NCBI GenBank assembly: GCA_030433275.1
Contig: JAUILK010000010.1
Span: 1-64,000, forward strand
From: Gammaproteobacteria bacterium
GTDB taxonomy: Bacteria > Pseudomonadota > Gammaproteobacteria > Nitrococcales > Nitrococcaceae
DNA: 64,000 nucleotides
Direction: 5' to 3'
The notes under the pieces were generated by a model. That model saw only the letters and a list, made by a program, of their open reading frames with translations, had not been told where the DNA came from and searched no databases. Below, one piece after another: positions 1 to 20,659 of the stretch. Numbering within the stretch: position 1 is the first letter of the stretch; each line of letters opens with the position of its first letter. The position numbers and the translations under genes were made by a program.

Positions 1-1
1 C

Positions 2-226
2 AATCAACACATCCCGCAGAAGGCACTTGAGCACCGAACGCCCATTCAGGCTCTCAAAGATTGGCAGCACAAACACCCTGATCTGTTTATACGTCAAGTT
101 CGTAATCAGCCGGGACCTGACATCTACGTAAGCATCTCGTTGGCCCCGCGTGCCTTACCGAGCGCGACCGGTAAGGCACGCAGAGGAAACTCTCCGCTCG
201 GTGTCATCTCTCATTCCAAGGCTTGA
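2..226 (+). mobile_element. C-terminal fragment of a DDE transposase (IS481/IS3-like)
   Basis: A frame open from the left edge reads NQHIPQKALEHRTPIQALKD followed by a WQ..HPDLF..V.NQPGPD stretch. This is the typical carboxy end of integrase-core transposases of the IS481/IS3 type, where a PHxALxxxTPxxAL motif precedes a W..K.P.LF tail. Conservation should end near base 118; the frame happens to stay open to a TGA at 224-226, overlapping the 3' end of hmp by 16 bases. The rest of the element lies outside the window, so it cannot be said whether it is intact. No clear terminal inverted repeat was recognised here. Family assignment is from motif memory. Confidence 0.7.
148..181. terminator. Perfect inverted repeat between transposase end and hmp
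   Basis: Two perfect 13-base arms (148-160 and 169-181) enclose an 8-base loop. It sits just past the stop codon of hmp (minus strand) and just past the conserved end of the transposase (plus strand), so it could stop transcription from either side. Neither flank has a T-run, so a Rho-independent terminator is not certain. It could also belong to the end of the insertion element. Confidence 0.45.
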
Positions 227-1383
227 GCCGGCCCGAAAAACTCGAAATGACGCCGGTTTTGGGGGACACCAATTTGGCCGAGCAACCGCAGCATCTCACG
301 CATGAATGGCACCGGGCCGAGGAAGTAAACCTCGCTGTCGGGTAGCAGATTTTGCGAGAGCACTTCTGCGTTCACCTGCCCATATACATCGGCATCATCG
401 CCTTGATCGGCCTGATCGTAAAGATAGCAGCGCTCGATATGATCATGAGATTGGGTCAGGCGATCCACATGATCACGAAACGCATGATGGCTCTGCTTGG
501 TGGCGGCATGCACAAAGCGAACTGGGCGCCTGCTGCCGGCAAGTGCGTTGAGCATGGCGATGGCGGGTGTGATACCGACCCCGCCGGTGAGCAAGACGAC
601 CGGATGATCGCCATCGCGCAGCGTGAAATTGCCGCTCGGCGGATAAAGATTGAGGGTATCACCGACCATGACCTTGTCATGCAAATACCCTGAGACCCGC
701 CCCACTGGCTCGCGCTTTACGGAGATTCGGTAGAACCGTCCATTGGGAGCGTCCGAAAGGGAATAGTTGCGCCGCATCGGTTCTCCATCGACTGTGACGT
801 CCAAACCGATGTATTGCCCGGGGGCGAAGTCCATGATGGGGCTGCCGTCTACAGGCTCAAGGTAAAAAGAAGTAATGACTTCGCTTTCCGGCTGCTTGCG
901 AACGACCCGGAAGGCTCGCAAACCGCGCCACCCACCCGGCTGCCGTTCCCGCGCACGGTAGAGGGCTTCTTCACGCTCGATGAGCAAATTCGCGAGCTGC
1001 CAATACGCAGCCTCCCAGCTTTCAGCGAGTTCCGGGGTCAACGCATCACCGAGCACCTCGGCCATCGCCTGTAACAGACAAGTGCCGACGATGGGATAAT
1101 GCTCAGGCAGAATATTCAACGACACATGCTTGTTGACGATTAAACCAATCGCTTCATTGAGAGTCTCCGGCTGTTCAATGTGGCGCGCATAGGCCAGGAT
1201 CGCACCGGCGAGCGCGCGCTGCTGCGCCCCATCACTCTGATGGCTTTGATTGAACAGCGCACGCACCTGCGGGTAATCCCGGAACATCAGTCGATAGAAA
1301 TGGCGCGTCAGTGACTCACCGTGTTCAACCAAGGCGGGTACGGACGCTTTGATCAGTTGAGTTTGTTGCTCACTCAGCGACAT
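211..1383 (-). CDS. hmp: Flavohemoglobin / nitric oxide dioxygenase
   Basis: The 390-residue product has the full-length Hmp layout. An N-terminal globin domain (about 1-140) carries the proximal-histidine segment PEHYPIVG. An FAD-binding reductase domain (about 150-260) carries the RNYSL motif. A C-terminal NAD(P)H domain carries LTGGVGITPAIAML. Hmp converts NO plus O2 to nitrate in the cytoplasm using NAD(P)H, FAD and heme b. The ATG is preceded by AAGGAAGG at good spacing. The gene is monocistronic and read leftwards; an AT-rich palindrome lies about 185 bases upstream. With nirBD 8 kb away it suggests exposure to nitrogen oxides. The family call is firm; which regulator controls it cannot be read from the sequence. 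Confidence 0.96.
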   Translation of the reverse strand: MSLSEQQTQLIKASVPALVEHGESLTRHFYRLMFRDYPQVRALFNQSHQSDGAQQRALAGAILAYARHIEQPETLNEAIGLIVNKHVSLNILPEHYPIVGTCLLQAMAEVLGDALTPELAESWEAAYWQLANLLIEREEALYRARERQPGGWRGLRAFRVVRKQPESEVITSFYLEPVDGSPIMDFAPGQYIGLDVTVDGEPMRRNYSLSDAPNGRFYRISVKREPVGRVSGYLHDKVMVGDTLNLYPPSGNFTLRDGDHPVVLLTGGVGITPAIAMLNALAGSRRPVRFVHAATKQSHHAFRDHVDRLTQSHDHIERCYLYDQADQGDDADVYGQVNAEVLSQNLLPDSEVYFLGPVPFMREMLRLLGQIGVPQNRRHFEFFGPAQALE

Positions 1384-1567
1384 ATCCGATTGCCTTCCTT
1401 CAGCTTGTTATGAGATGTGACAGGCTATCCAAGCGTTTCCGCGTGGAAGCAGTCAAAAATGCCGTTCTAATGGATTGCTAGGCAGCCCCTTTTCGCGAGG
1501 GATAGATCTTTCGATACCGGCAAAGACAGCTTTGGCCAACAATCGAGGTCAAGTATACACAAATAAG

Positions 1568-1586
1568 AAATATATTAAATATATTT
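1568..1586. promoter_or_regulatory. AT-rich palindrome upstream of hmp
   Basis: AAATATATT and AATATATTT form a perfect 9+1+9 palindrome in a conspicuously AT-rich island (about 1550-1590) upstream of hmp. Position and symmetry suit a dimeric repressor operator. It does not match the NsrR consensus when aligned position by position, and no FNR/DNR half-site (TTGAT...ATCAA) is visible, so the factor is unknown. Confidence 0.3.
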
Positions 1587-1981
1587 TTATGGTTGGCCAG
1601 ACCGGCCCAACGAGCATGATCCATTATTGGCCACGCGCGCCCATCTCCTAATAGAGAGAGAGAGAGGCCTTTCTCTTTGGATACCGCCCACCCTGGGAGC
1701 AGTGGCGGGCGTCAAAGACAACTGTTCGAGCGGGCGATTTGTCGCCAAGTACTGCTGCGCTGGTGCCCAAAAGTAAGAGGGCGGCCTCCGGACACACAGA
1801 TCTATTTACCGCATCTCTTGCCCTCAACTCGCTGCACGGCTCCGAAAAGCCTCTGGATACAGCGGATTAACTGGTATCGACATGGCTGCGCTTGGGCGCG
1901 TACTCAGGAAAAATCAATGCCGCTTCGAACCTCTAGGCGATTCACCAAGGCTATGGTATGGTCAATTCAATCATAAGCATG

Positions 1982-2005
1982 GCCGCCAACCGGCGGCTTT
2001 GTTTT
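1982..2005 (+). terminator. Rho-independent terminator-like hairpin before ctaG
   Basis: GCCGCC (1982-1987), loop AACC, GGCGGC (1992-1997), then TTTGTTTT. This is the classic form for plus-strand termination, yet no gene is recognised upstream on that strand. It ends only 8 bases before the ctaG start, so it either ends an unrecognised small transcript or acts as a leader element for ctaG. Confidence 0.55.
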
Positions 2006-2012
2006 ATAGGCG

Positions 2013-2921
2013 ATGCCCCTATCCGGTATTAGCGCAATGTTTTCAACTCTGCAGTTCCTGCAGCCCTGGGAACCCTCGTTGGCGATCCAGCTGCTCTGCG
2101 CGTTCGCTGTAGGCCTCTATATAACAGGGCTGGTAAAAGGGCGCCGCAGCGGTCACCGCGAAGGGTTTTGGAAACCGTTCGCTTTTTTACTCGGCGTGAC
2201 GCTGATGTATTTCGTCACGCAGACGCAGTACGACTATCTCTCGCAACACATGTTTTTCATTCACCGGATTCAGCACCTGGTATTGCATCACCTAGGTCCC
2301 TTTCTGATCGCCCTATCGGCCCCGGCCGCCGTGCTCGGTCGTGGTGCACCGGATAGCGCACGCCGCTCCAGAAGTTTCCTACGGCCACTTTGGGTCCCCG
2401 CACGGAGTGCTTATCGCATTCTGCAGCAGCCCGTCATTGCTACTGTGCTGTTCGTTGGCCTGATTTTTTTCTGGCTGACCCCATCGATTCATTTCGACGC
2501 CATGCTCAGCGCGCAGCGCTACGCTCTAATGAACTGGAGCATGGCGGTGGATGGACTGCTGTTCTGGTGGCTGATTCTCAATCGTGCCCCGGATGGTTTG
2601 ACGCCACAACTGAGCTATGGCCGCCGCATCTTGATTTTGGCGGTGATCATGCCGCCACAGAGTGTGCTCGGCGCTTATATAGCTTTGAGTAAACAGGATC
2701 TCTTCGATGTCTATGCAGTTTGCGGTCGTGCCTGGCCGGTGAGCCCGCTAGTCGATCAGCAGATTGGTGGATTGGTCACCTGGATTCCTTCTTCCATGAT
2801 GAGTGTGGTGGCGGCCTTGATCCTACTTGGCTTCATGTTCCGCGAGCACCGAACCCGCCGGTCTACCCCTTCGCCAGCCGGCCCACCGGGCAATCCGCTC
2901 TCATCGACCACCTCGGTTTGA
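2013..2921 (+). CDS. ctaG: Cytochrome c oxidase assembly factor, caa3_CtaG family
   Basis: The 302-residue integral membrane protein has about seven hydrophobic segments. It carries a histidine-rich stretch early in the chain, MFFIHRIQHLVLHHLGPF, which is typical of the caa3-type CtaG family. These proteins are implicated in copper delivery or assembly of heme-copper oxidases. The C-terminus is polar and proline-rich. ATG 2013 is used; an internal ATG at 2037 is an alternative and neither has a strong ribosome-binding site. The SCO-family gene follows after 9 bases, so the two are probably co-transcribed. No oxidase subunit genes lie nearby in the window. Confidence 0.85.
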   Translation: MPLSGISAMFSTLQFLQPWEPSLAIQLLCAFAVGLYITGLVKGRRSGHREGFWKPFAFLLGVTLMYFVTQTQYDYLSQHMFFIHRIQHLVLHHLGPFLIALSAPAAVLGRGAPDSARRSRSFLRPLWVPARSAYRILQQPVIATVLFVGLIFFWLTPSIHFDAMLSAQRYALMNWSMAVDGLLFWWLILNRAPDGLTPQLSYGRRILILAVIMPPQSVLGAYIALSKQDLFDVYAVCGRAWPVSPLVDQQIGGLVTWIPSSMMSVVAALILLGFMFREHRTRRSTPSPAGPPGNPLSSTTSV

Positions 2922-2930
2922 ATTGCCATA

Positions 2931-3524
2931 ATGACTTCAAAATGCCGCCGTATCCTGATCAGCATTGGTTTATGTTTGCTGCTTGCCGCCTGTGGCGACG
3001 GTATTGATTGGCAAACCAAAGGTATTGCCGGATTGATGCCGCCGTTGCGCTTCACATTGACCGAAGACAGCGGCAGCCCGGTTCAGGCCAAGGACTTCCA
3101 TGGCCATATAACGTTAATGTATTTCGGCTATACGCATTGCCCGGATATCTGCCCGACCACTCTAGCCAAGCTGAAGGCTGCTATTGCGCGGCTACCGGAA
3201 TCGGCCGCACAGGATGTGCGAGTACTTTTTGTTACTGTGGATCCAAAGCGTGACGGGCTCGAACGCTTGCGCACCTATACGGCGGCGTTCGGACCGCAGT
3301 TCGTGGGCCTGAGGGGCAGCGATGTCGAGCTAACCCAACTGACTAAACGCTATCGCATCACCTACGGCCGCGGTAAACCCGATGCAAGTGGCAATTACGA
3401 GGTTTCCCACAGCAGTGCGGTCTTTGTTTTCGACCGCAGCGGGGAGGCGCGACTTATGGTGCGTGACTCCGACGGAGTGGATGCCCTCGCAGCGGATCTC
3501 GAGCGCCTGGAAAACAAGACGTAA
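2931..3524 (+). CDS. SCO1/SenC/PrrC-family copper chaperone lipoprotein
   Basis: The 197-residue protein begins with a lipoprotein signal ending LLLAAC, so the mature protein should be anchored in the membrane facing the periplasm. It has a thioredoxin-like fold with the copper-binding CPDIC motif (about residue 70) and the distal histidine in YEVSHSSAVFVFD (about residue 160), the three metal ligands of Sco proteins. Its role is maturation of the CuA centre or thiol chemistry in cytochrome oxidase assembly. It follows ctaG closely and ends at a strong bidirectional terminator. Confidence 0.92.
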   Translation: MTSKCRRILISIGLCLLLAACGDGIDWQTKGIAGLMPPLRFTLTEDSGSPVQAKDFHGHITLMYFGYTHCPDICPTTLAKLKAAIARLPESAAQDVRVLFVTVDPKRDGLERLRTYTAAFGPQFVGLRGSDVELTQLTKRYRITYGRGKPDASGNYEVSHSSAVFVFDRSGEARLMVRDSDGVDALAADLERLENKT

Positions 3525-3556
3525 CGTGCGCACGATAACTCGACCGTCGTATACTT

Positions 3557-3587
3557 AGAAAGCGCCCCCTTCTTGGGGGCGCTTTCT
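3557..3587. terminator. Bidirectional terminator between sco and ilvD
   Basis: Perfect 13-base stem (3557-3569 and 3575-3587) with a TTCTT loop; the outer arms are A-rich and T-rich respectively, so it works in both directions. It lies between the convergent ends of the SCO gene (3524) and ilvD (3597). Confidence 0.85.
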
Positions 3588-3596
3588 CTGAGTATG

Positions 3597-5285
3597 TCAG
3601 TCGAATAGGTCTTTGTCCGTAACCGCTCCAATGCTCGCCGAAGAGACCAATTTGGCGTATTTTGCGAGCACACCACGGCGATAAAGAGGGCGTGGCGGCT
3701 GCCAGGCGGCTCGACGCCGGGTAAGATCCATGTCGTCGATGTGGAGCATCAGCAGATTACGATCGGCATCGATCGTGATTTCATCACCCTCCTGCACCAA
3801 AGCAATCGTACCGCCGACCGCCGCCTCTGGTGCAACATGGCCGACCACCATGCCATAGGTGCCACCGGAGAAGCGCCCGTCGGTAATGAGACCTACCGCA
3901 TCCCCCAAACCCTTGCCGATAATCGCCGAAGTCGGCGCCAGCATTTCGCGCATCCCGGGTCCTCCCTTCGGACCCTCATAACGAATCACGATGATATCAC
4001 CCGCTACGATTTGATCCGCCAGAATCGCCTCCAGCGCGCTCTCTTCGGAGTCGAAAACCCGCGCTGGACCGGTGATCCGACGCTGCTTGATGCCGGTGAC
4101 CTTGGCGACGGCACCCTCCTCGGCCAGGTTGCCGCGCAGGATGGCCAAATGTCCCTGTGGATACAGGGGCTGCTTGAAAGGCCGAATAATCTCCTGACCG
4201 CTCGGCGGCTCGGCGGGTACATCGGCCAACAGTTCGTCGATGGAGTGTCCGGAAATAGTAAGGCAGGCGCCGTGCAGCAAGCCGTGGGTCAAAAGAATCT
4301 TCATCACCTGCGGGGTACCGCCGACTTCATGGAACTGGCTGGTCACGAAGCGGCCGGAGGGCTTGAGTTCGCAGAGCACGGGCACCTGGCGTCGGATCGC
4401 TTCGACATCGTCGATGCTGAAATCGACTTCTGCAGCATTGGCAATCGCTAGCAGATGCAGCACGGCGTTGGTCGATCCGCCGAGCGCCATGACCACTGCA
4501 AAAGCGTTTTCGAACGCCTGGCGGGTCATTATGTCACGCGGTAGGCGCTGTTCCCGGATGGCAGCTACCAAAACTTCAGCCGAACGCCGCGCGCTCTGCG
4601 CTTTCTCGGGGTCCTCCGCGCACAAGGTAGAAGAGCCCATCAGACTCATACCCAAGGCCTCGAAGGAACTGGACATGGTGTTGGCGGTGTACATCCCGCC
4701 GCAGGCACCGGCACCGGGACAAGCGTTGCGCTCCACGCCCTGCAAATCCTCGGCTGAGAGTTTGCCGGCGGCATACTGCCCAACCGCCTCAAACGCGCTC
4801 ACGATGGTCAAATCCTGACCCTTATAGCGGCCCGGTTTAATGGTCCCGCCATAGACAAAAATTGCCGGGATGTTCATGCGTGCTATGGCGATCATGGCAC
4901 CTGGCATGTTCTTGTCACAGCCGCCGGTGGCGAGCATGCCATCCAGGCATTGGCCATTGCCTACCGTTTCGATGGCATCGGCTATAACCTCGCGGGAGAC
5001 CAACGAGTATTTCATGCCCTCGGTGCCCATGGATATTCCATCAGAGATGGTGATGGTGCCAAAGCTGACCGGCATGGCACCGGCGCCACGTAGCGCCTGC
5101 TCGGCCTGAGCCGCTAAGGCACCAATACCCACGTTGCAGGGGGTGATAGTACTGTGGGCATTGCCCACCCCAACGATTGGTTTATCGAAATCAGCGTCGG
5201 TAAAACCGACAGCGCGCATCATAGCCCGGTTCGGCGTACGGGCCACGCCATGAGTGATCACGCGGCTGCGGCGATTATCGGCCAT
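3597..5285 (-). CDS. ilvD: Dihydroxy-acid dehydratase
   Basis: IlvD dehydrates 2,3-dihydroxy-isovalerate and -methylvalerate in valine/isoleucine synthesis. The 562-residue form is shorter than the E. coli enzyme and has [23 protein letters not shown] and [20 protein letters not shown]. These place three cluster cysteines in the pattern I associate with the plant/mycobacterial subtype, often reported to bind [2Fe-2S]. ATG 5285 is chosen because GAGGAGAA precedes it and the protein then starts MADNRRSR. The upstream frame to 5351 is not family-like. It stands alone between a bidirectional terminator and a gene-free region, apart from the other ilv genes at 55-56 kb. Confidence 0.96.
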
Positions 5286-5601
5286 TACTTCTCCTCGCAG
5301 ACACTCGGGAAATCGGATCGAACCGACAGAACGGCATATTGTAGCAGGCAACCGTCATGGGGCCGTTGCTGAGTTACCGAGGGCAGTACCCAATCGGCAG
5401 TCAGATTCGCCTCCAACTTGCTACACGCAGCCCGCCCTCTTGGTGACTTGTTACATCTTACAGTTTCAATCGGCACGCCGGTCCACGCCCTACAAGAACA
5501 GCCGTATACCGTTTGAAGTGAACCGGCCGGGTCACCCATACTCCTCTTGTGATCTCCTAAGAAGATAACTTAACCCCGCATGCTGCTTATAAAATCCTGG
5601 G

Positions 5602-5805
5602 TATTCCACAGAATCTGTGGATAACCCTGTGGACGAACTGGGGGAACATCGACCGAAGCGGCGCTCTACAAGGCTTTTTGTTAATTCGACCAACTTTTCA
5701 TCAGATTGAAATTTTATTTATAAAACATAGCCTTACTCATGTGGCGGCAACGCGAGGCAGCCAGCCCACATCGATGACCCAAAACCCCGACCGGACTGTG
5801 CATAA
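5602..5805. other. DnaA-box-like cluster beside AT-rich DNA
   Basis: The 5286-5831 gap has no gene. Within it are a perfect DnaA box on the minus strand (TGTGGATAA, 5616-5624), a second consensus match (TGTGCATAA, 5797-5805) and two 7/9 matches (5602-5610 and 5628-5636) packed around the first. Between them lies a run rich in A and T (about 5681-5730), resembling an unwinding element. The arrangement looks like a small replication origin or DnaA-binding locus, but dnaA, dnaN, mnmG or parAB are not in the window. Motif matches are seen; function is inference. Confidence 0.35.
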
Positions 5806-5831
5806 CTCGATTTGTCAAGCCGAACACCCTC

Positions 5832-6752
5832 TCAGGAGATCAACGCAGCGACATGACGCGCAGCACTGCGCGCCAACGCCTGCAAATTATAGCCGCCCTC
5901 GAGCGTAGAGACGATTCGCCCCTGGCAGCAAGTCTCGGCAACCCCGACCAACTCTTCGGTTGCCCATTGATAATCGTCATCGGTCAAGGCAAGTTCAGCC
6001 AGAGGATCGGATTCATGAGCGTCGAAACCCGCCGACACCAAGATCAGATCCGGAATAAAATCCGCGAGCGCCGTTATGACCTCGACGCGAAAGTGCTCCC
6101 GAAACGCCTCGGAACCGGCCCCGGGCGGCAGTGGAATATTGCATAGCGAGCCGGGTCGATTCTCCTCGCGTCGCCCGGTATTCGGAAACAGGGGGTGCTG
6201 ATGGGTCGAGACATAGAGAAAACCCTCGCGACCGGCCAACATGGCTTGGGTTCCATTGCCATGATGAACGTCGAAATCCACGACAGCGATATTGCGCGCC
6301 GCATATCTACAGCGGGCCTGCAACGCACCCACGGCCACGTTGTTGAACAAGCAAAAGCCCATTGCCCGGGCGGGCTCGGCATGATGGCCGGGTGGCCGCA
6401 CCGCACAAAAAGCCCGCTTGGCCGCGCCGCTCATTACCGCATCCACGGCTTGCCTAACCGCGCCAGCCGCCCGCAAAGCGGCCTCACCTGAGGCCGGGCT
6501 GATCATGGTATCCGGATCGAGGGAGCGCCACCCCGAGGCGGGAATCATCGTCAAAATCCGTTCTATATAGTCTCGCTCATGGACGCGCGCGATCTCCTCC
6601 AGCGTCGCCGCTTCGGCTTCCCGTCGCACCAGCCCTGCAAAGGCGGGGGTATCGAGCGCCGCGAGAATCGCCCGCAGCCGATCGGCGCATTCGGGGTGAT
6701 CATAGCCAGTGTCATGCTGCAGGAAAACAGGATGTGTGATTAGCCACGTGGC
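5832..6752 (-). CDS. Histone deacetylase-family (arginase/deacetylase fold) amidohydrolase
   Basis: The 306-residue zinc hydrolase is of the class II HDAC / acetoin-utilisation / acetylpolyamine amidohydrolase superfamily. Visible signatures are RPPGHHA (catalytic His pair), VDFDVHHGNGTQ (zinc Asp/His), HQHPLFPNTG and LEGGYNL near the C-terminus. Bacterial members deacetylate acetylated small molecules or proteins; the substrate here cannot be told. The ATG at 6752 is preferred over an upstream TTG (6785) because an AGGAG lies ahead. It is downstream of metXW on the same strand with a gap of about 100 bases. Confidence 0.88.
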   Translation of the reverse strand, partial: ATWLITHPVFLQHDTGYDHPECADRLRAILAALDTPAFAGLVRREAEAATLEEIARVHERDYIERILTMIPASGWRSLDPDTMISPASGEAALRAAGAVRQAVDAVMSGAAKRAFCAVRPPGHHAEPARAMGFCLFNNVAVGALQARCRYAARNIAVVDFDVHHGNGTQAMLAGREGFLYVSTHQHPLFPNTGRREENRPGSLCNIPLPPGAGSEAFREHFRVEVITALADFIPDLILVSAGFDAHESDPLAELALTDDDYQWATEELVGVAETCCQGRIVSTLEGGYNLQALARSAARHVAALIS

Positions 6753-6850
6753 CATTTGTCTATAGGCTCCTGGCCGGGTTGACAAAGGTTAGCCGAACCG
6801 CCTGTGCTGAATGAGTAACCGAGTCCTGTCGAACGAGGCTGCGGCGTGCG

Positions 6851-7453
6851 TCAGCTGCGGCAGAAGCGATAAATTGCGATCTCGGCGAGCAGATTCGGCA
6901 GCACGCCGGCAATTACTGGGCGACGCAGATCATGCGAGAGGACTTCACGTTCCAGGATGCGGATACCTTTTTGCAGGCACAGCTCCTCGAAATCATTGAT
7001 CGAGCACAAGTGGATGTTCGGCGTTTCGTACCAAGTATACGAGAGAGCACCGCTCATGGGCATACGACCCAGCACGGCTAGGTAATAACGCAAGCGCCAA
7101 AAGGCGAAATTTGGGAAGGTGACGATCCCCATGCGGCCTACCCGCAATATCTCGTCAAGCAGCAAATCCGGGCGGCGCACCGCCTGGAGGGTCTGGGTCA
7201 TGACCACATAGTCGAACGACCCCGCATCAAAATCCGACAGCCCCTGGTCAAGATCGGTTTGAATCACATTCACGCCGCTGCGGATGCAATGGACAATTTT
7301 CTCGGCGTCGATCTCCAGCCCGTAACCGGTAACCGAGCGGTTGTCCTGGAGGTGGCGCAGCAGCCTACCGTCGCCGCAACCGAGATCAAGCACTCGAGAG
7401 CGAGGCGCGATCCAGTCCGCCACGATTTGCAAATCGGCCCGCAGCCCGCTCAC
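6851..7453 (-). CDS. metW: Methionine biosynthesis protein MetW
   Basis: The 200-residue class I methyltransferase-fold protein has the SAM-binding motif [12 protein letters not shown] near residue 21 and a second conserved block [13 protein letters not shown]. MetW is always coupled to metX in many proteobacteria and is needed for full homoserine acyltransferase function. The start is a GTG overlapping the metX stop as GTGA, a translational-coupling arrangement that decides the start. Confidence 0.94.
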
Positions 7454-8619
7454 ACCCCGCTCTCCGCGGCTACCTTGTCCATGTAGGTACGTAGCACCTC
7501 TAAGTACTGGGGCACCGGCATCAGAAAGGCATCATGGCCGTGATCGGCTTCGATCTCCGCGTAACTGACTTCCTTGTCGTTATCCAGCAAAGCTCGAACG
7601 ATCTCCCGCGAACGGGCCGGCGAGAACCGCCAATCGCTAGTGAAAGCGACGACTAGAAACCGCGCCGCAACACCCGCCAGCGCCTTAGCCAAATCCCCTT
7701 CAAACGCCGCGGCTGGATCGAAATAGTCCAACGCCTTGGTCATCAACAGGTAGGTGTTGGCGTCGAAGCGATTGACGAACGACTCGCCCTGATAGCGCAG
7801 ATAGCTCTCTACTTCGAATTCCACCTCGTAGTGGAAATCGAAATCATCCTTGCCCCGCCGCAAATCACGACCAAATTTCGCGCGCATCGCCTGATCCGAA
7901 AGGTAGGTGATGTGCCCCAGCATCCGTGCCAGCATCAATCCGCGGCGAGGCACGACTTGGTGACTCTGGTAGCGACCACCATAAAACTCCGGATCCGAGC
8001 GGATAGCCTGCCGGGCCACTTCGTTGAAGGCGATGTTTTGAGCCGACAAACGCGGCGCAGCGGCAATCACCGCCGCATGACGCAGCCGTTGCGGGTACTC
8101 GATAGCCCACTGCAGGGCCTGCATGGCACCCAGGCTGCCACCGGCTACCGCTGCCCAGCGGTCAATCCCCAGATGATCGGCTAGGCGCGCCTGGCTGTGA
8201 ACCCAATCCTGCACGGTGATGATGGGAAAATCGGCCCCGTAAGGCTCATCCGTGGCCGGATTGATGCTCGTGGGGCCGGTGGAACCGTGACATCCGCCCA
8301 AATTATTACTGCAGACGACGAAAAAGCGGTTGGTATCAATGGGCTTGCCAGGGCCAATACACACTTCCCACCAACCGGGTTTGCGATCCGATGGACTATT
8401 GTACCCCGCCGCGTGATGGGTTCCGGACAGCGCATGACAAATCAGTATCGCATTGCTGCGAGCCGCATTAAGTCTCCCGTAAGCTTCATAGACAAGCTCA
8501 TAGCTGGGCAAGCTACGGCCACACTCCAGCATCAGCGCCGTATCGAAACGGGCGGATTTGGGCTCGACTAGGCCGACTGAATCGGGCGGAATCGATTCAG
8601 GCATCGTCTCCGCGGTCAT
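7450..8619 (-). CDS. metX: Homoserine O-acyltransferase MetX
   Basis: The 389-residue alpha/beta-hydrolase enzyme activates homoserine for methionine synthesis. The nucleophile elbow GGSLGAMQ is near residue 165 and the Asp/His pair is near the end (TSDWRF and DHGHDAF). The oxyanion-region motif ALSGTHH is near residue 64. Proteobacterial MetX proteins may be acetyl- or succinyl-transferases; the sequence read here does not let me decide. It starts at ATG 8619 and runs into metW with a 4-base overlap. No riboswitch was recognised upstream. Confidence 0.94.
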
Positions 8620-9164
8620 GCTGATGAATTGAGTATTGGGATAAAGGTTAAAAATAATAACAGAGCGCTATTGCAACGCAACCGGGAGCTGGATGGCGTC
8701 GATGAGAGCCAAACCAATCTGAACGCCGACACACATGGCAACCGCCATGGAGGATGATTCAGCTCCACTATGGGTAAACGCGATCTGCCTGCAGTGTGTA
8801 CGACCGGAATACCGAGCCGCCAGCCCCGGGGCGCGTGCAGCAGATCGCTGCATAACCTAAGGCAAACGCTATTGCCTCGGATTACGGTAAACAGGACGAG
8901 CAAGACCGTCAAACGCATCTACGGCAAGCGCCGCCACGCCAGATCTGATCTGGAGCAACGCCTCTCCACTGCGCGGCACGCCCCATCTTGGTGCACCCAT
9001 CGCTGCAGCGCACCAAACAGCCCCTACCAATCCGTCAGATCCGGCATTTTTATAAAAATTTTCTCTATAAAACAAAATATTATTCAATACATTTGTATAT
9101 GGCCTATATTTTGCATTCATATACAAAGCGAGCAAATAGCAAACCCAAGTGGGAGATCCGGGTC
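8620..9164. other. Divergent intergenic region metX / nirB
   Basis: This 545-base region separates metX (leftward) from nirB (rightward). No protein gene is convincing. The open frame at 8616-8918 (minus) has no YggT signature, although yggT often precedes metX. The last 120 bases are strongly AT-rich and hold the inverted repeat described separately. Confidence 0.5.
9092..9127. promoter_or_regulatory. Inverted repeat ahead of nirB
   Basis: Perfect 10-base arms TTTGTATATG (9092-9101) and CATATACAAA (9118-9127) with a 16-base spacer lie 38 bases upstream of the nirB ATG in AT-rich sequence. It could be a two-site operator or an mRNA leader hairpin controlling nirBD in response to nitrogen source or oxygen. 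No FNR or NarL consensus was recognised. Confidence 0.45.
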
Positions 9165-12728: not shown

Positions 12729-14264
12729 ATGAGTGAGCAGGGCAAAGCAGGCGGCACCTTCTTCCACGATTTGATGGCTTCAATCGTGGTCTTCTGCGTG
12801 GCACTTCCACTGTGTATGGGTATCGCCATTGCATCCGGAGTTCCCCCAGCTCTGGGCTTGATCACCGGAATAATCGGCGGAATCGTCGTTGGAGTGTTAG
12901 CGGGCCAACCGCTGCAGGTGGGTGGGCCTGCCGCAGGGTTGACTGTACTGATTTGGGATATCGTCCAGCGGCACGGTCTCGAAATGCTGGGTGTCGTGGT
13001 GCTTGCCGCCGGGGTCATCCAGGCCGCCGCCGCCTTGCTCCGACTCGCCCCCTGGTTTCGCGCCGTCTCGCCGGCAGTCATCCAGGGCATGCTTTCAGGC
13101 ATTGGCGTGCTGATCTTCGCCAGCCAGTTCCACGTGCTGATGAACAACGAACCGCAGGGTAGCGGGATCATGAACCTGATCTCGATTCCCGAGGCCATCC
13201 ACGCAGGGATCACCCCTATAGACGCCACCGCCTTAGCAGCGATGATGGGCGTAGTAACCCTGCTGACGCTGATAGGATGGAACGAATTCCGACCAAAGTG
13301 GTTGCGAGCAATTCCGGGCCCGCTGGTCGGAGTGATCGTGGCAAGCATCACAGCAGCGATCGTTGGGCTGGATACCCATTATGTGGAAGTGCCTAAGAAC
13401 CTTATCCACAGCATGAATATCCCGACCCTCGATGACTTTGCGCGCTTGACCGAACCACTTGTCTTCGGCGACGCCGTGGCCATCGCTCTCGTGGCCAGCG
13501 CCGAAACGCTGCTGTGCTCGGCCGCCGTCGACCGGATGCAGAACCGCATTCGGACCAACTACAATCAAGAACTCCTGGCGCAAGGAGTAGGCAACACACT
13601 GGCTGGGGTGCTCGGCGCGCTGCCGATGACCGGTGTTATCGTGCGCAGCAGCGTCAATATCGAGGCCGGCGGGCGAACGCGCCTTTCGCCAATTCTGCAT
13701 GGTGTGTGGTTACTAGGCCTCGTTGTGGCGCTTCCGCAGGTGCTCGAACTCATTCCGCGCTCAGCACTAGCGGCCATTCTGATCTACACGGGCTACCGAC
13801 TGTTCAACCTGTCTGCCCTACGGCGCCTGTGGCGCCTAGACCGTGTGGAATTCAGCATCTGTATCGTGACGCTGAGCGTGATCGTGTTCACCGATCTGCT
13901 GACCGGCATCATCACGGGCGTCTTGCTCTCGTTCATCAAGCTCGTACGCACGCTTAGCCACCTCGAGATCGAGGTCACGCCAGCGGGCGAGCGGCGTTAC
14001 GATGTGGACCTGCATGGTGCAGCGACCTTCGTTCGCTTGCCGGAACTTGCGGAGACAATCGAGCGCCTACCCAACGACGCGGAGATTCACTTGCACGTCG
14101 GGGGACTGGTACACGTCGATCGGGCCTGCATCGAGTGGCTGCAAAACCACGAAAGCTCCCACATTTCGCGCGGCGGCAAACTGGTCGTCGACTGGAATGA
14201 GTTCACGCGGCGGAACGTTGGGAAGCCGCTTTGGGCGACGGTCGGACGGGGCGAGACCTTATAA
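12729..14264 (+). CDS. SulP-family inorganic anion transporter with STAS domain
   Basis: The 511-residue protein has a SulP membrane domain of about ten or more hydrophobic segments, including the GQPLQVGGPAAGLTV block and MTGVIVRSSVNIEAGGRTRL. A C-terminal STAS-like domain follows (about 420-500). SulP proteins move sulfate, bicarbonate or other anions; the substrate is not readable here. ATG 12729 is chosen for the GAGGG seven bases upstream and the family-like start MSEQGKAGG. Its end is 2 bases from the end of the convergent sigma-factor gene. It is clearly homologous to the truncated SulP gene at the right edge. Confidence 0.9.
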   Translation: MSEQGKAGGTFFHDLMASIVVFCVALPLCMGIAIASGVPPALGLITGIIGGIVVGVLAGQPLQVGGPAAGLTVLIWDIVQRHGLEMLGVVVLAAGVIQAAAALLRLAPWFRAVSPAVIQGMLSGIGVLIFASQFHVLMNNEPQGSGIMNLISIPEAIHAGITPIDATALAAMMGVVTLLTLIGWNEFRPKWLRAIPGPLVGVIVASITAAIVGLDTHYVEVPKNLIHSMNIPTLDDFARLTEPLVFGDAVAIALVASAETLLCSAAVDRMQNRIRTNYNQELLAQGVGNTLAGVLGALPMTGVIVRSSVNIEAGGRTRLSPILHGVWLLGLVVALPQVLELIPRSALAAILIYTGYRLFNLSALRRLWRLDRVEFSICIVTLSVIVFTDLLTGIITGVLLSFIKLVRTLSHLEIEVTPAGERRYDVDLHGAATFVRLPELAETIERLPNDAEIHLHVGGLVHVDRACIEWLQNHESSHISRGGKLVVDWNEFTRRNVGKPLWATVGRGETL

Positions 14265-14266
14265 TC

Positions 14267-14884
14267 TTAGGTGTTTAGCTCCGGCATTCGATGGATTGGA
14301 TCGAGGATGAATCGACGCGATTCGATTACCGCAACTTCGAGATCGGTTTTCACCCGTGCGCACCTACTCGCGAGGAAAACCCCTATCAACACCTGGTAGC
14401 AACGACGCAGAACGTGGACCACATCTTTCTCGACGGCGCTCAAGGAGACGGTGAGTTGTTCGCCGATCCGGGGATAGCTTTTGCCTTCCAGACGGGACAA
14501 TAGGAACACTTCGCGCCCGCGCGGTTTGAGACCGTCCAAAAGCGCATCGATTCGCGTCAGCGCATCCGCAATCAATTGGTGCTCCTCCCGCGAGGGCTCA
14601 GCGGTCTCCGGCATGGCGGCCAATGTTTCCAGCCAAGTCCGCTCTAGGGCTTGGCGGCGGCGGTGATCCACCAACAAGCCATGGGCGATACGCGCCAGAT
14701 AGGCCCTTGGTTCCCGCATAGGCGGCAAGGAAGTCTCACCCAACAAACGCAGGAATACGTCTTGGGTTAAGTCAGCGGCGGTATGGACGCACCCTGATCG
14801 ACGATACAACAACCTCCACAACCACCGATTACGGTCGACGTACAAAGTAAGCCGTGGATAGGAACAGGAGGCATACGGATACAT
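14267..14884 (-). CDS. ECF RNA polymerase sigma factor (FecI-like)
   Basis: The 205-residue protein has a sigma-2 region (about 10-85, AADLTQDVFLRLL and PRAYLARIAHGLLVDHRRR) and a sigma-4 helix-turn-helix (about 130-180, LKPRGREVFLLSRLEGKSYP). Such factors direct RNA polymerase to a small stress or iron regulon. The FecR anti-sigma or TonB receptor genes usually beside FecI-type factors are absent; the 3' neighbour is the convergent sulP. The last 40 residues are an unconserved tail. Confidence 0.85.
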   Translation of the reverse strand: MYPYASCSYPRLTLYVDRNRWLWRLLYRRSGCVHTAADLTQDVFLRLLGETSLPPMREPRAYLARIAHGLLVDHRRRQALERTWLETLAAMPETAEPSREEHQLIADALTRIDALLDGLKPRGREVFLLSRLEGKSYPRIGEQLTVSLSAVEKDVVHVLRRCYQVLIGVFLASRCARVKTDLEVAVIESRRFILDPIHRMPELNT

Positions 14885-15446
14885 CTGCGGCTGACCGTAA
14901 ACAAAGCCTAAAATTGTAATACAAAGACAAATTGCTTTTTAAATGCCCGTCGGCGATGTCTGCTTACCGCTAGGCCAGACAACCGGCTGAGATCAACCGT
15001 ACACGGGCGCTCGGTTTCATTTCACAGCGTTCACAACCCCTTCGGGCCAGCCCGCAACAAGTCCATGCCGTCCGCCTGAAGAAGAATGGACGGTTTACGA
15101 TGAAGCTCGGTAACCGCGCACTGCAACGCCCCAGGCGTCTTCAACTGGCAACACGATGATGACCGACTAGCCAGTCTTAAGGAGGCTTGCTTAGAAAGCT
15201 ACGCCTCCATCTGAACCGTCTCTACTACCATAACTGAGTTGGGTTTTCGCCTTCGGCACGAACGGTGGGCCGTTCAGGAGCGGGATAAGAAAGAACGCTT
15301 CGAAACCAAGCGTCGAGCCAGCAATTCGTTGGCCTTGAGGGCGGCAGGCAGCGAGGCTAGTTCGTGACTGGCATTTTTATTGCTTAAATACCGTTGAAGA
15401 ATGGCATTCGTTCTTTGCTGATCAAAGCATTCTAAGGAGCCTACCG
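14885..15446. other. Intergenic region between sigma factor and DUF4168 gene
   Basis: A divergent 560-base gap. It must hold promoters for the sigma factor (leftward) and the DUF4168 gene (rightward), the latter with AAGGAG before the ATG. No gene remnant was recognised. No convincing ECF promoter motif was identified. Confidence 0.4.
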
Positions 15447-15782
15447 ATGAGTATTACTAAGCGCGCCGGTTTGGCGCTGGCGATCGGACTACTGACCGTG
15501 GTACCAGCAACGTACGCGCAGGATGGCGCTGATCTCTCCCAGCAGAAGCTGGAGCAATATACCCAAGCTCAACAGAAGGTCGCGAGCATCAGCCAGGAAT
15601 ACCGTGAACGCTTGGGTGCAGCTCAGGACAGAGAGAAGGCCACAGAATTACGGAATCAAGCCCGACAAGAGATGATGCAGGCGGTTACAGCTAGCGGCCT
15701 GACAGTGGCCGAATATAATCGGATCACACAAGCGGTGCAGACTGACCCGAAACTCCGCGAACGTGTCCTCGAGCACCAATAG
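15447..15782 (+). CDS. Small exported DUF4168 protein
   Basis: The 111-residue protein has a signal peptide (about 1-24, hydrophobic core AGLALAIGLLTVVPATYA, cleavage near AQDG). A helical, Gln/Glu-rich mature part follows, with AQQKVASISQEYRERL and LTVAEYNRITQAVQTDPKLR. This matches the DUF4168 family, whose function is unknown. AAGGAG precedes the ATG. It is followed by a very strong hairpin and is probably monocistronic. Confidence 0.82.
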   Translation: MSITKRAGLALAIGLLTVVPATYAQDGADLSQQKLEQYTQAQQKVASISQEYRERLGAAQDREKATELRNQARQEMMQAVTASGLTVAEYNRITQAVQTDPKLRERVLEHQ

Positions 15783-15808
15783 AGTTCCCGCTTGCGCCGC
15801 CAAGGTAT

Positions 15809-15853
15809 TACGGGGTAGCAGGCCAAGCTCGCCGCTTGGCCTGCTACCCCGTA
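15809..15853. terminator. Perfect 20-base hairpin after the DUF4168 gene
   Basis: Arms 15809-15828 and 15834-15853 are perfectly complementary over 20 bases with a TCGCC loop. It lies 26 bases past the DUF4168 stop and covers the last codons and stop of the decayed minus-strand gene, so it could serve both. There is no T-run. Confidence 0.7.
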
Positions 15854-16338
15854 GCTTCCTGACGACAGCCAAGAATACGGATGCAGACCGCAATTATCGC
15901 GATGATCACCATAAGCGTGTACACGCTTCCCAGCGCGATACCTTCGAAGCCGACGCCCAGCGCTCCACGTCGCTCACGGCGCAACAAGTCACCGAGCCTG
16001 AACACGAAAACCGCGTTCGATAGCGGACCTGCAACGTGCTCAAGATTCGCTTACCAATAGGCTGTATCCACGATACCAAGCGCAAAAATCTGCGCGGCAA
16101 CGCCACCCTGACGGCATTACTGTAGGCAATGCGAAGCGGGGCCATTGCCGGCAACAGTTGCGGTTCATGTCAATTCCGGACGGCGAGAAATGCCACCGAA
16201 GAAGATCGAACCGAATACGGCCTCACCGACTCCCGCCCAGTCTGCAAATTCGTCGCCAGCCTGCGACAATCGAGTGCGAAACCCGATCGTGAGCACCACT
16301 CCCCCGAAGGCGGTAATATACTCACGGGTAAGGACCAT
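15844..16338 (-). pseudogene. Decayed gene for a membrane protein
   Basis: One minus-strand reading frame reads sensibly from an ATG at 16338 to a TAG at 15844-15846 but contains three internal stops (first a TGA at 16165-16167, then two TAA). The pieces look like membrane-protein sequence: EYITAFGGVVLTIGF, AGVGEAVFGSIFFGGIS, VAAQIFALGIVDTAYW and a C-terminal helix GSVYTLMVIIAIIAVCIRIL. Because all pieces share a frame, point mutations rather than indels broke it. I cannot name the family. An alternative is chance hydrophobic coding, which is less likely given continuity over about 165 codons. Confidence 0.5.
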
Positions 16339-16485
16339 GACGCCGTTCCGCTCACACCCCTTGAAATCCCACGTTCGGAAACATGCGGGAAACAACAAGT
16401 GTCACCCACGTTGACCGATTCCGAGCGAAGACGTTGCCGGCTGGCCTGCGGTTCATTTTCCCCAGGCTACCGACAAAATAGCGTG

Positions 16486-16510
16486 CCCGCACCCAATCTC
16501 ATGGTGCGGG
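16486..16510. repeat. Short hairpin between two pseudogenes
   Basis: CCCGCACC (16486-16493) and GGTGCGGG (16503-16510) pair around a 9-base loop. It may be a relic terminator or leader structure. No functional call is made. Confidence 0.3.
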
Positions 16511-16587
16511 TCAAATAGTGCCGGCAAACTGAGTGGCAACCGGGAAATTACCTTTTTCAGTCGCGTACTTATTTGAATCCACCCGAT

Positions 16588-16661
16588 CGGTCCGAGCGTA
16601 GGGGCGCGATCAGGCGGCAGTCGCAACAAGATGATATAACGTTCCTACCACGCTCGGACCG
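16588..16661. repeat. Inverted repeat at the 3' end of the MBL pseudogene
   Basis: CGGTCCGAGCGT (16588-16599) and ACGCTCGGACCG (16650-16661) are perfect 12-base complements 50 bases apart, one inside the last codons of the pseudogene and one outside. It may be a small inverted duplication produced during decay. Confidence 0.5.
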
Positions 16662-17615
16662 TAATGGCCCGGCGCGAAAGTATCGGCAAGCCGCACCTTG
16701 GCTCGCCAGCCGGTCAGCGGCCGGGTGCAACGATACGCGGCAGAATTCGTTGAGCGAGATCACGCACGGTCGGTTCGATGCGCGGCTCCATTGCCTTACC
16801 GGCGAGGTGATACCCTCCGAGCACCACGTCGAGGGGCATGCCCGGAAACTGCTCCTGAACGCTCAGACAGGCGTTGACGATGCCCGCATGAGAACAGGCC
16901 GAAAGCACCGTCACTCCTCTCCCTTTAACCCAGACGGCGACGTAACGCTCGCCCATGATCAGCGGATCGGCCATACCCTTGTCGCCCCGAAAGGGGTGAT
17001 GGCCCGCGAGGCCGGTCTCATAATCTGTGATGCGCTCAATGGCACCACTGCCCAAGAAAAAACCGCCGCCAGCGTATGCGCATCGGCGCAAGTAGCAATC
17101 CGCCCGCCGCCGCTGGCGATTTCATCGAAACGCGGCTCTTTGGGCAAAAGCTACATCTGTCCGTTTGCCAAGAGTATGCCGCGCTGGTCCGGTCGATCCG
17201 GATGCAGGTTCACGAGTACGGGTGTATCCAAGCCGGCCGCTTCGCGGGCTCGACTGATCGCGGTAACAACCTTGGACAAAGCCCCGCTGCGGTCAAAGTG
17301 CCAGTGGGAGAGAAAGACGCACTCGATAGCCGCGAGTTCAACATCGAGGCGCCGGGCATTGTCCAACCAAACATCCGGATAGGGGCCAACATCGAAAAGC
17401 AACGTACGGGTCTCGTTACCACACCGCCCAGTAATCAATACGGAAAGACCATGGCAAGCACAGCACATTCGATCGAACACAATTTTGCCCGCCTGCCCTT
17501 GATAAACCCGGCTCACAGGCGCTCTCGCTGCATGCTGAATAACTTCGGGGATCTGAGGTGCACCGTCATCAACGCTGGATAACGTATCGGTTTCATTATC
17601 GACGAGGACGAGAAT
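16610..17615 (-). pseudogene. Frameshifted metallo-beta-lactamase-fold hydrolase
   Basis: The remains of a class-B beta-lactamase-superfamily hydrolase of about 330 residues are readable in three frames. The N-terminal part (17615 to 17154) contains TRTLLFDVG and LSHWHFDRSGAL, where the last ligand of HxHxDH is changed to Arg. It meets a TAG at 17151-17153, continues in frame, then shifts near 17055-17070 into a piece with VLSACSHAGIVN and VLGGYHLAG. It shifts again at about 16711 into a C-terminus TGWRAK...PSVVGTLYHL ending at TGA 16610-16612. The normal start is also missing. The order of motifs matches the family of metal-dependent hydrolases with a CSHAGIVN block. It is certainly not translated whole. 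Confidence 0.82.
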
Positions 17616-17919
17616 TTACACCTCGTCGAGAGCGAGAACGCCGTTACCCCTCTTTTTCAGAGCACGTTGCCCTGCCATTGCCATGCAAGGCTCCACTCGA
17701 GGTGACTCGAACCATTGTCATTGCGCCAGAAATCGATTCCATATTGAGGCGATGGCACGAACCATCACATCAAGCACCTCTGCCGCTATCATCAACCTTA
17801 TCCGCCCCAGCGGGGACAACGGTCTCCAGCAACACGGCTGAACTCGTCATAGGGTGATTTGTACCACGCACACTCCGCTCCGACAGTCTCAAGGTAACGG
17901 GAACGCGAAGAGATAGATC
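17616..17919. other. Gap between MBL pseudogene and PAP2 gene
   Basis: About 300 bases with no supported gene. A short minus-strand frame (17855 downwards) soon hits a stop and has no recognisable motif. Confidence 0.4.
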
Positions 17920-18663
17920 ATGAGTAAGACCCAACAATTCCGCCACGCCGCCTTGTCGTGGCTAACATGGCTCGCTCGCCACGAATTGGCCATTCTCTTG
18001 TCCGTCATGGTCTGCGCCGGTGGATCGTGGGGATTCATAGAACTGGCCGAAGACGTCGCCGAAGGCGATACCCACCGCATCGACGAAACCATACTGCTGG
18101 CTCTGCGCAGCCCAACCGATCGCTCGGATCCGCTTGGACCGGCCTGGGTAGAGGAGGCCGTTCGCGATATTACGGCACTCGGCGGCATTCCTATGGTGAC
18201 GCTGATCATCTTGGCGGCAGCCGGCTATCTGCTGCTCGCGCAGCGTTTTCATACGGCGTTGTTCATTGTGATCGCTGTGCCAGGTGGCTTGTTGGTGAGC
18301 AGCCTACTAAAAACGAGCTTCGAACGACCGCGCCCCGATCTAGTGCCCGCCGAAGTCAGCGTCTATACGGCCAGTTTCCCCAGCGGCCACTCGATGATGG
18401 CTGCAGTCACCTACCTGACCCTGGCGGTACTGCTTGCTCGGATCGTGCCGGAGTGGCGTTTGAAGCTCTACCTACTGCTGATCGCGGCGTTTGTTACAGT
18501 ACTTGTAGGGGTAAGCCGTATTTACCTCGGCGTCCATTGGCCCACTGATGTGCTGGCCGGATGGACGGCAGGTGCGGCTTGGGCTGCGCTCTGTTGGCTC
18601 GTGGCCCATCAAGCGCCACAGCGCTTATCTGCGTCTACCAGCAAAGTTTTACGCAAACGCTAG
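17920..18663 (+). CDS. PAP2-superfamily membrane phosphatase
   Basis: The 247-residue protein has about six membrane segments and all three motifs of the PAP2 acid phosphatase family: KTSFERPRP (about residue 130), PSGHS (about 152) and SRIYLGVHWPTD (about 199). Members dephosphorylate phosphatidic acid, undecaprenyl pyrophosphate or related lipids on the outer face of the inner membrane. It is intact although flanked by two pseudogenes. Start is ATG 17920; a competing plus-strand frame (17958-18548) is a shadow. Confidence 0.9.
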   Translation: MSKTQQFRHAALSWLTWLARHELAILLSVMVCAGGSWGFIELAEDVAEGDTHRIDETILLALRSPTDRSDPLGPAWVEEAVRDITALGGIPMVTLIILAAAGYLLLAQRFHTALFIVIAVPGGLLVSSLLKTSFERPRPDLVPAEVSVYTASFPSGHSMMAAVTYLTLAVLLARIVPEWRLKLYLLLIAAFVTVLVGVSRIYLGVHWPTDVLAGWTAGAAWAALCWLVAHQAPQRLSASTSKVLRKR

Positions 18664-18922
18664 CTCTGCTGCTGGCGGCTGCCGCTGGCACGGCAACCCC
18701 GCCCACGCCCACTATTCGTCGGCACGGCCGCACTATCATCGGATGCTTTGCTTACTCTGGCAAGCTATCGCTGCAACGCGCTGTCCAAAGGCTAGAGCCC
18801 CCGCCCTGGTAGCTCTGCTTCACTGGAACCCTCACAAAGGATCAGGCAGCCGCGTAAAATTATAAGCCGGTTGGCTGGCCGACAGAGGAATTAACAACAG
18901 ACCTATCGCCCGAAGAAAGCAC
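18664..18922. other. Gap between PAP2 gene and AhpD-like pseudogene
   Basis: About 260 bases without a supported gene. It contains an AT-rich patch near 18855-18870 that could be the old promoter of the decayed AhpD-like gene. Confidence 0.35.
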
Positions 18923-19278
18923 ATGACGCAGGAGCTTTACCCTCATGTATCGGTTGAAGCCGCGCAGCGGCACACCCAATTAGCCGTCGATACACACCGG
19001 GCGTTTCAGCGCCTTCAACAAGCAAATCTTCGCCGACGGAGCCCTATCCACAAAGACCAAGCAATTGATCGCCGTCACGGTTGACCATATTATCCAAGCC
19101 ATACTGCATTCCCGACCATACCAAGGCGGTGTTGCGCGAAAACGCCAGCGCGGAGAAAATCATGGAAGCGATTTAGGTTGCTTGCAAGATGCGTGCGTGC
19201 GGCGCCTACCTACGCCCACTCTACCTTGCACTGGATACGGTGAGAAGGCGTACTTACCAAGCAGCGCGGCTGCTCTGA
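18923..19278 (+). pseudogene. Decayed AhpD-like / carboxymuconolactone decarboxylase-family gene
   Basis: Three plus-strand frames give successive parts of an AhpD-fold protein. They are MTQELYPHVSVEAAQR from ATG 18923; then, after a shift near 19000, FNKQIFADGALSTKTKQLIA; then, after a shift near 19105, YCIPDHTKAVLRENASAEKI. The last continues as MEAI-stop-VACKMRACGAYLRP and ends at TGA 19276-19278. The internal TAG (19174-19176) sits where family members usually have Trp, so it is probably TGG changed to TAG. The CxxC peroxidase site is damaged (only the second Cys remains). The family match is strong in three independent pieces; the gene is broken. Confidence 0.8.
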
Positions 19279-19351
19279 GCGGGATCGAGACGCAAAGCGG
19301 CTGCCGGAGTTATTGGCACTAATAACACGCGGAGCAGTGTCTAACAGTGCA

Positions 19352-20659
<1,308 letters not shown>

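Follow-up and report, generated by a model that had tools for sequence, protein, structure and literature searches.

The stretch between a DUF4168 gene and purA in this genome raises the question of why genes should have decayed side by side, and whether they mark an island that is losing function or a set of genes that once worked together, the two readings offered by an earlier note on this DNA. The window, by which we mean the whole stretch of 64,000 nucleotides that was analysed, is part of contig C34 of a draft genome of 3.41 Mb in 104 contigs (G000). The genus from which it comes is Nitrococcus, whose members are nitrite oxidizers, and the nearest relatives with which it was compared were four genomes of the same genus (G001 to G004, making five with G000), among them Nitrococcus mobilis Nb-231 (G001; contig G001:C1, NZ_CH672427.1) and a metagenome-assembled genome of N. 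mobilis (G004; contig G004:C145, JAGFJL010000048.1).

Three of the four genes between DUF4168 and purA are broken

In G001 all the genes of the region are open and, in the orientation of the window, follow one another in the order DUF4168, an exchanger of family PF01699 (374 aa, minus strand), an MBL-fold hydrolase (381 aa, minus strand), a PAP2-superfamily phosphatase (247 aa, plus strand), a CMD/AhpD-like protein (116 aa, plus strand) and purA. The MBL, PAP2 and CMD genes are also open in G004, where the exchanger is split in two pieces. In the window only PAP2 has survived intact of the four genes between DUF4168 and purA, and lesions disrupt the exchanger, MBL and CMD. Alignment of the reconstructed proteins with close relatives revealed frame-disrupting lesions in each of the three genes at places where the frames of the relatives are open, and sister strains carry intact versions in the same order, G001 for all three genes at the same place and G004 for MBL and CMD. 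The decay reported earlier is thus real, and all of it falls within 15,844–19,278.

The cluster is bordered on the left by the DUF4168 gene (15447..15782, plus strand; 111 aa; PF13767, E 3.4e-17; 84% identity to G001 over its full length) and on the right by purA, encoding adenylosuccinate synthetase (19352..20647, minus strand; PF00709, E 2.1e-177; 98% identity to G001). Both are intact and, like PAP2, have no indels and no early stops relative to G001. The DUF4168 and exchanger genes converge on an inverted repeat (15809..15853; an opposite-strand self-match of 89% over 45 bases), which is likely to be a terminator hairpin. A search for Rfam families at the gathering threshold gave none in 14,200–19,400. 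With respect to carriage on plasmids, a distant search matched 13 records, all at 60–80% identity and each with less than 80% of the query covered; it was on the PAP2 part that the five listed rows fell.

The exchanger gene has lost about half of its length

The remains of the Na/Ca-exchanger-family (PF01699) membrane protein gene lie at approximately 15892..16456 on the minus strand and were traced by a piecewise match to the intact 374-aa gene of G001. They had been described as a membrane protein with three in-frame stops. Three stops are indeed present, in 15,982–16,308, but only one of them falls on a codon aligned with G001, the other two being in shifted frames, and an internal deletion of 561–569 bases (depending on the alignment), which removed about half of the gene, had been overlooked together with several small indels and frameshifts. 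The intact G001 protein resembles the PF01699/CaCA family in having two PF01699 stretches, but it differs in scoring 41 of the 179.65 bits demanded by TIGR00367 (NCBIfam), far under the cut-off, and the window copy is broken. No PDB chain matched the exchanger by sequence at E 0.001.

In G004 the exchanger carries gaps that sum to 81 bases, and so stay in frame, together with a deletion of 457 bases. The ends of this deletion coincide with CAAGCTTCG, a 9-base word that occurs in the G001 gene as a direct repeat, once at position 316 and again 457 bases further on, at 773; the match is taken with some caution, since five 9-mers occur repeatedly in the G001 exchanger gene. The end points of the deletions differ between the window and G004. 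As the G004 gene was broken by other deletions than that of the window, the exchanger was probably lost twice, independently in the two species. A one-base gap near codon 46 appears in the alignments of both the window and G004 and was considered as a shared early lesion; it was set aside as improbable and not counted as shared, because the neighbouring gaps in G004 total an in-frame 81 bases.

It is conceivable, if unlikely, that the exchanger was not simply lost and was instead replaced by a distant, intact, predicted exchanger elsewhere in the genome. The candidate (G000:C5:21361–22398; L040 1501–2538) is an intact PF01699 protein with 43% identity to that of G001, a transposase-like ORF (DDE_3, winged HTH; L040 3017–3811) adjoins it, and G001 to G004 gave no matches at E 1e-10 beyond the purA-linked exchanger or its pieces. 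However, replacement could explain no more than one of the three losses, and in G004 the exchanger was lost without any such substitute.

The MBL and CMD genes carry several lesions each

The MBL-fold hydrolase pseudogene (16613..17681, end approximate, minus strand; PF00753 on the intact copy) has two stops, at G001 codons 46 and 201, and its body has lost a single base at each of codons 229 and 347, while the 5′ part, which is weakly conserved, has gained one. The previous description gave one stop, two shifts and a lost start. The loss of the start was not upheld, as an in-frame ATG, followed shortly by a stop, is present ahead of the conserved body, in the area where the G004 ORF starts. 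In the signature motif HxHxDH, HWHFDH has become HWHFDR, the last histidine being replaced by arginine. At E 1e-10 the rest of the genome yielded no intact copy. The family likeness is to MBL-fold hydrolases by PF00753, and the best PDB matches, over the C-terminal part, were 3h3e (TM1679) and 2p4z ('Metal-dependent hydrolases of the beta-lactamase superfamily II'); the gene differs from these in that its NCBIfam matches are far under the cut-off and that the window copy is broken.

The CMD/AhpD-like pseudogene (18923..19245, end approximate, plus strand; PF02627 on the intact copy) has one stop, at codon 85, as had been noted, and three frame-changing indels, near codons 30, 59 and 107, rather than two. 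The CxxC motif (CPYC) of the intact copies has lost its first cysteine in the window. A search of the rest of the genome at E 1e-10 gave no intact copy, and one at E 0.01 gave, besides pieces of the pseudogene, a single match of 28% identity. Intact copies are like other CMD/AhpD-like proteins in PF02627 (E 4.8e-20), in a TIGR00778 domain over its cut-off and in the CxxC motif, and differ in scoring 81 against a cut-off of 120 for the arsenosugar-associated TIGR04169; the window copy is, again, broken.

Between these two pseudogenes the PAP2-superfamily phosphatase gene (17920..18663, plus strand; 247 aa) is intact, as previously stated: its frame is open throughout, PF01569 is matched at E 1.4e-26 with 93.2 bits against a curated cut-off of 27.2, identity to G001 and G004 is 84–89%, and its codon pattern is constrained.

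Substitution patterns suggest an order of loss

Substitutions unique to the window were counted by G001 codon position and tested against the neutral expectation of 2:1, and for the window branch the mean of first- and second-position changes was divided by the number at third positions, with 95% bootstrap ranges for this ratio. The counts for positions 1, 2 and 3 did not differ from neutrality in CMD (14/16/20; p 0.37; ratio 0.75, 0.43–1.35) or in the exchanger (17/11/19; p 0.35; ratio 0.74, 0.43–1.33). They departed from it in MBL (25/20/53; p 3.5e-5; ratio 0.42, 0.29–0.61), PAP2 (13/7/34; p 9e-6; ratio 0.29, 0.17–0.50) and purA (6/2/60; p 7e-21; ratio 0.07, 0.02–0.12), and DUF4168 gave 4/6/12 (p 0.042; ratio 0.42, 0.15–1.00). 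The codon-position pattern shows that PAP2 is under purifying selection. Since the MBL substitutions are non-neutral and those of CMD and the exchanger neutral, MBL would have broken last, the exchanger and CMD earlier. This order is only suggestive, because comparison of the window branch with the pooled G001 and G004 branches gave no significant difference for any gene (p 0.095 to 0.64; CMD 0.096, exchanger 0.14, MBL 0.31). Moreover, MBL is nearly as constrained as PAP2, so that it is the lesions themselves that mark it as broken.

The block is accessory and its genes appear to behave separately

The block adjoins purA in three of the five Nitrococcus genomes, those of the window, G001 and G004. 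No such cluster lies beside purA in G002 or G003, both drafts about 95% complete, where the gene abutting purA is one we take to be trpE-like. None of the exchanger, MBL, PAP2 and CMD genes had a match in G002 at E 1e-10, and in G003 only CMD did, through two homologues on other contigs, of 63% and 37% identity. Beyond purA, the long ORF of G006, G007 and G008 is, by eye, presumably RNase R-like, and the four genes of the block were not found by tblastn at E 1e-5 in the purA stretches examined. The differing genes beyond purA indicate that this flank was rearranged within Nitrococcus. The description of an island losing function therefore fits, in the sense of an accessory block that is shedding genes, at a spot where gene order varies within the genus. 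As a separate observation, the left flank of purA (19352–20647 in the window; compared with L016–L020) has the look of a rearrangement-prone junction.

The other reading, that the four genes formed one functional module (serving, for example, calcium, peroxide or envelope-lipid stress) that was discarded in its entirety once the life style had changed, fared badly. The adjacency of the genes in three species, the loss of three in one of these, and the lack of matches at E 1e-10 in G002 and G003, apart from the CMD homologues of G003, would agree with it. However, the genes lie on both strands, PAP2 has been retained under constraint and losses differ between species, only the exchanger being lost in G004; it is for these reasons that we regard the four as separate genes. 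Nor do the homologues keep company elsewhere. A search with MBL gave 26 loci, two in Nitrococcus and 24 outside, and in none of the latter did homologues of the exchanger, PAP2, CMD, DUF4168 or purA lie beside MBL at E 1e-3 in the stretches examined, several of which were short because of contig ends. Clustering of 18 of the 24 revealed no conserved neighbour (groups in at least three loci). Besides the MBL gene itself, one group, with five loci, reached that number; it was rejected as a partner, as its members overlap the MBL gene on the opposite strand and were read as antisense frames. In other genera of the order, homologues within one genome are on different contigs (e.g. G027, G030 and G040) or about 0.6 Mb apart (G035). 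A module discarded as a whole is thus very improbable.

Decay is concentrated in the cluster

The window was compared with 128 kb of G001 using ORFs of at least 100 aa paired as reciprocal best matches, with different start choices tolerated. End-to-end correspondence was found for 41 of the 42 pairs, some of which may be mechanical frames, the exception being a frame that overlaps PAP2. In a stricter tblastn pass, 15 of the 51 G001 ORFs with a match were flagged. Seven of these were among the end-to-end pairs and were read as over-extended starts or small frame effects. Four of the other eight belong to the cluster (the exchanger, MBL, a frame over CMD and a frame over PAP2) and four lie outside it: in the variable left part, a match of 34%; a G001 frame of 125 aa where the window ORF has 62 aa; a 201-aa ORF whose sole stop lies ahead of the conserved part, where the start is probably over-extended; and an ORF of 105 aa, doubtfully coding, with a stop close to its end. 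These four were not counted as decayed genes, and the 105-aa ORF may be one. If all 44 genes ran an equal risk, which in fact they do not, three broken ones would fall by chance into a run of four neighbours about 0.9% of the time.

The concentrated decay had been placed in an otherwise tight core genome, which holds for the purA side but not for the left part, as window positions 1–8,983 and approximately 14,252–15,369 have no match of more than 200 bases in the compared 128 kb of G001. A FecI-like ECF sigma factor gene (14267–14884) likewise has no match there. A stretch of about 40–60 bases at 14268–14327 recurs at 85–90% identity at G000:C85, G004:C117 and G004:C177, and is possibly a small dispersed repeat. 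To the left of DUF4168 in G001 (L015, reverse-complement coordinates 5861–6547) is a 228-aa ORF that by eye resembles part of a FAD-dependent monooxygenase, perhaps another decayed gene of the same variable stretch.

These comparisons also bear on the idea that the breaks are sequencing or assembly errors of the draft contig. The assembly is indeed in 104 contigs, and the MBL substitutions look mostly constrained. However, the end-to-end pairing of ORFs argues against it, the CMD and exchanger substitutions fit neutrality, a pattern that errors do not produce, and neither the exchanger deletion of 561–569 bases nor an MBL gene with two stops, two body frameshifts and a lost HxHxDH histidine together is readily put down to error, so that we give this explanation hardly any credence. 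Decoding of the frames as split or recoded genes, by programmed frameshifting or readthrough, is the least credible of all, for although the MBL pattern is still mostly constrained, the sisters have single open frames, each gene has several lesions, an HxHxDH histidine and a CxxC cysteine are gone and half of the exchanger is missing.

Probably staggered pseudogene formation beside purA

The reading we prefer, with a probability of about 0.92 on the evidence of sequence comparison, is that ordinary mutation disabled three of the four genes in an accessory block beside purA, probably in succession, and that PAP2 is kept by selection. The small block of exchanger, MBL hydrolase, PAP2 and CMD stands beside purA in three of the five Nitrococcus genomes, and three of its genes would no longer have been useful in the species of the window. 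Mutation would then have broken them stepwise, the exchanger and CMD first and MBL later. In the sister species (G004) the exchanger appears to have been broken on its own, with one of its deletions running between the two 9-base direct repeats. One could go further and propose that the independent losses of the exchanger, with the loss of its neighbours in one species, reflect a shared selective push against the block in some marine niche, the cluster marking an ecological split among marine nitrite oxidizers, but we consider this a long shot.

Searches of the literature on Nitrococcus pseudogenes and genomes, on nitrite oxidizers and on pseudogenes generally gave no title on this cluster among the matches listed. 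The locus illustrates, cleanly and on a small scale, what is probably stepwise gene loss in Nitrococcus, and it carries a caution for annotation, in that this species should have its exchanger, MBL and CMD genes labelled pseudogenes. Set beside ordinary bacterial pseudogene formation in accessory regions, it shares the stops, frameshifts and internal deletions, an apparently relaxed pattern of substitution in two of the broken genes and the intact copies in sisters. Nothing essential differs, a neat touch being that two sister species seem to have lost the exchanger in parallel, through different deletions. The case is one of ordinary, probably staggered pseudogene formation and represents no new kind of system or mechanism.
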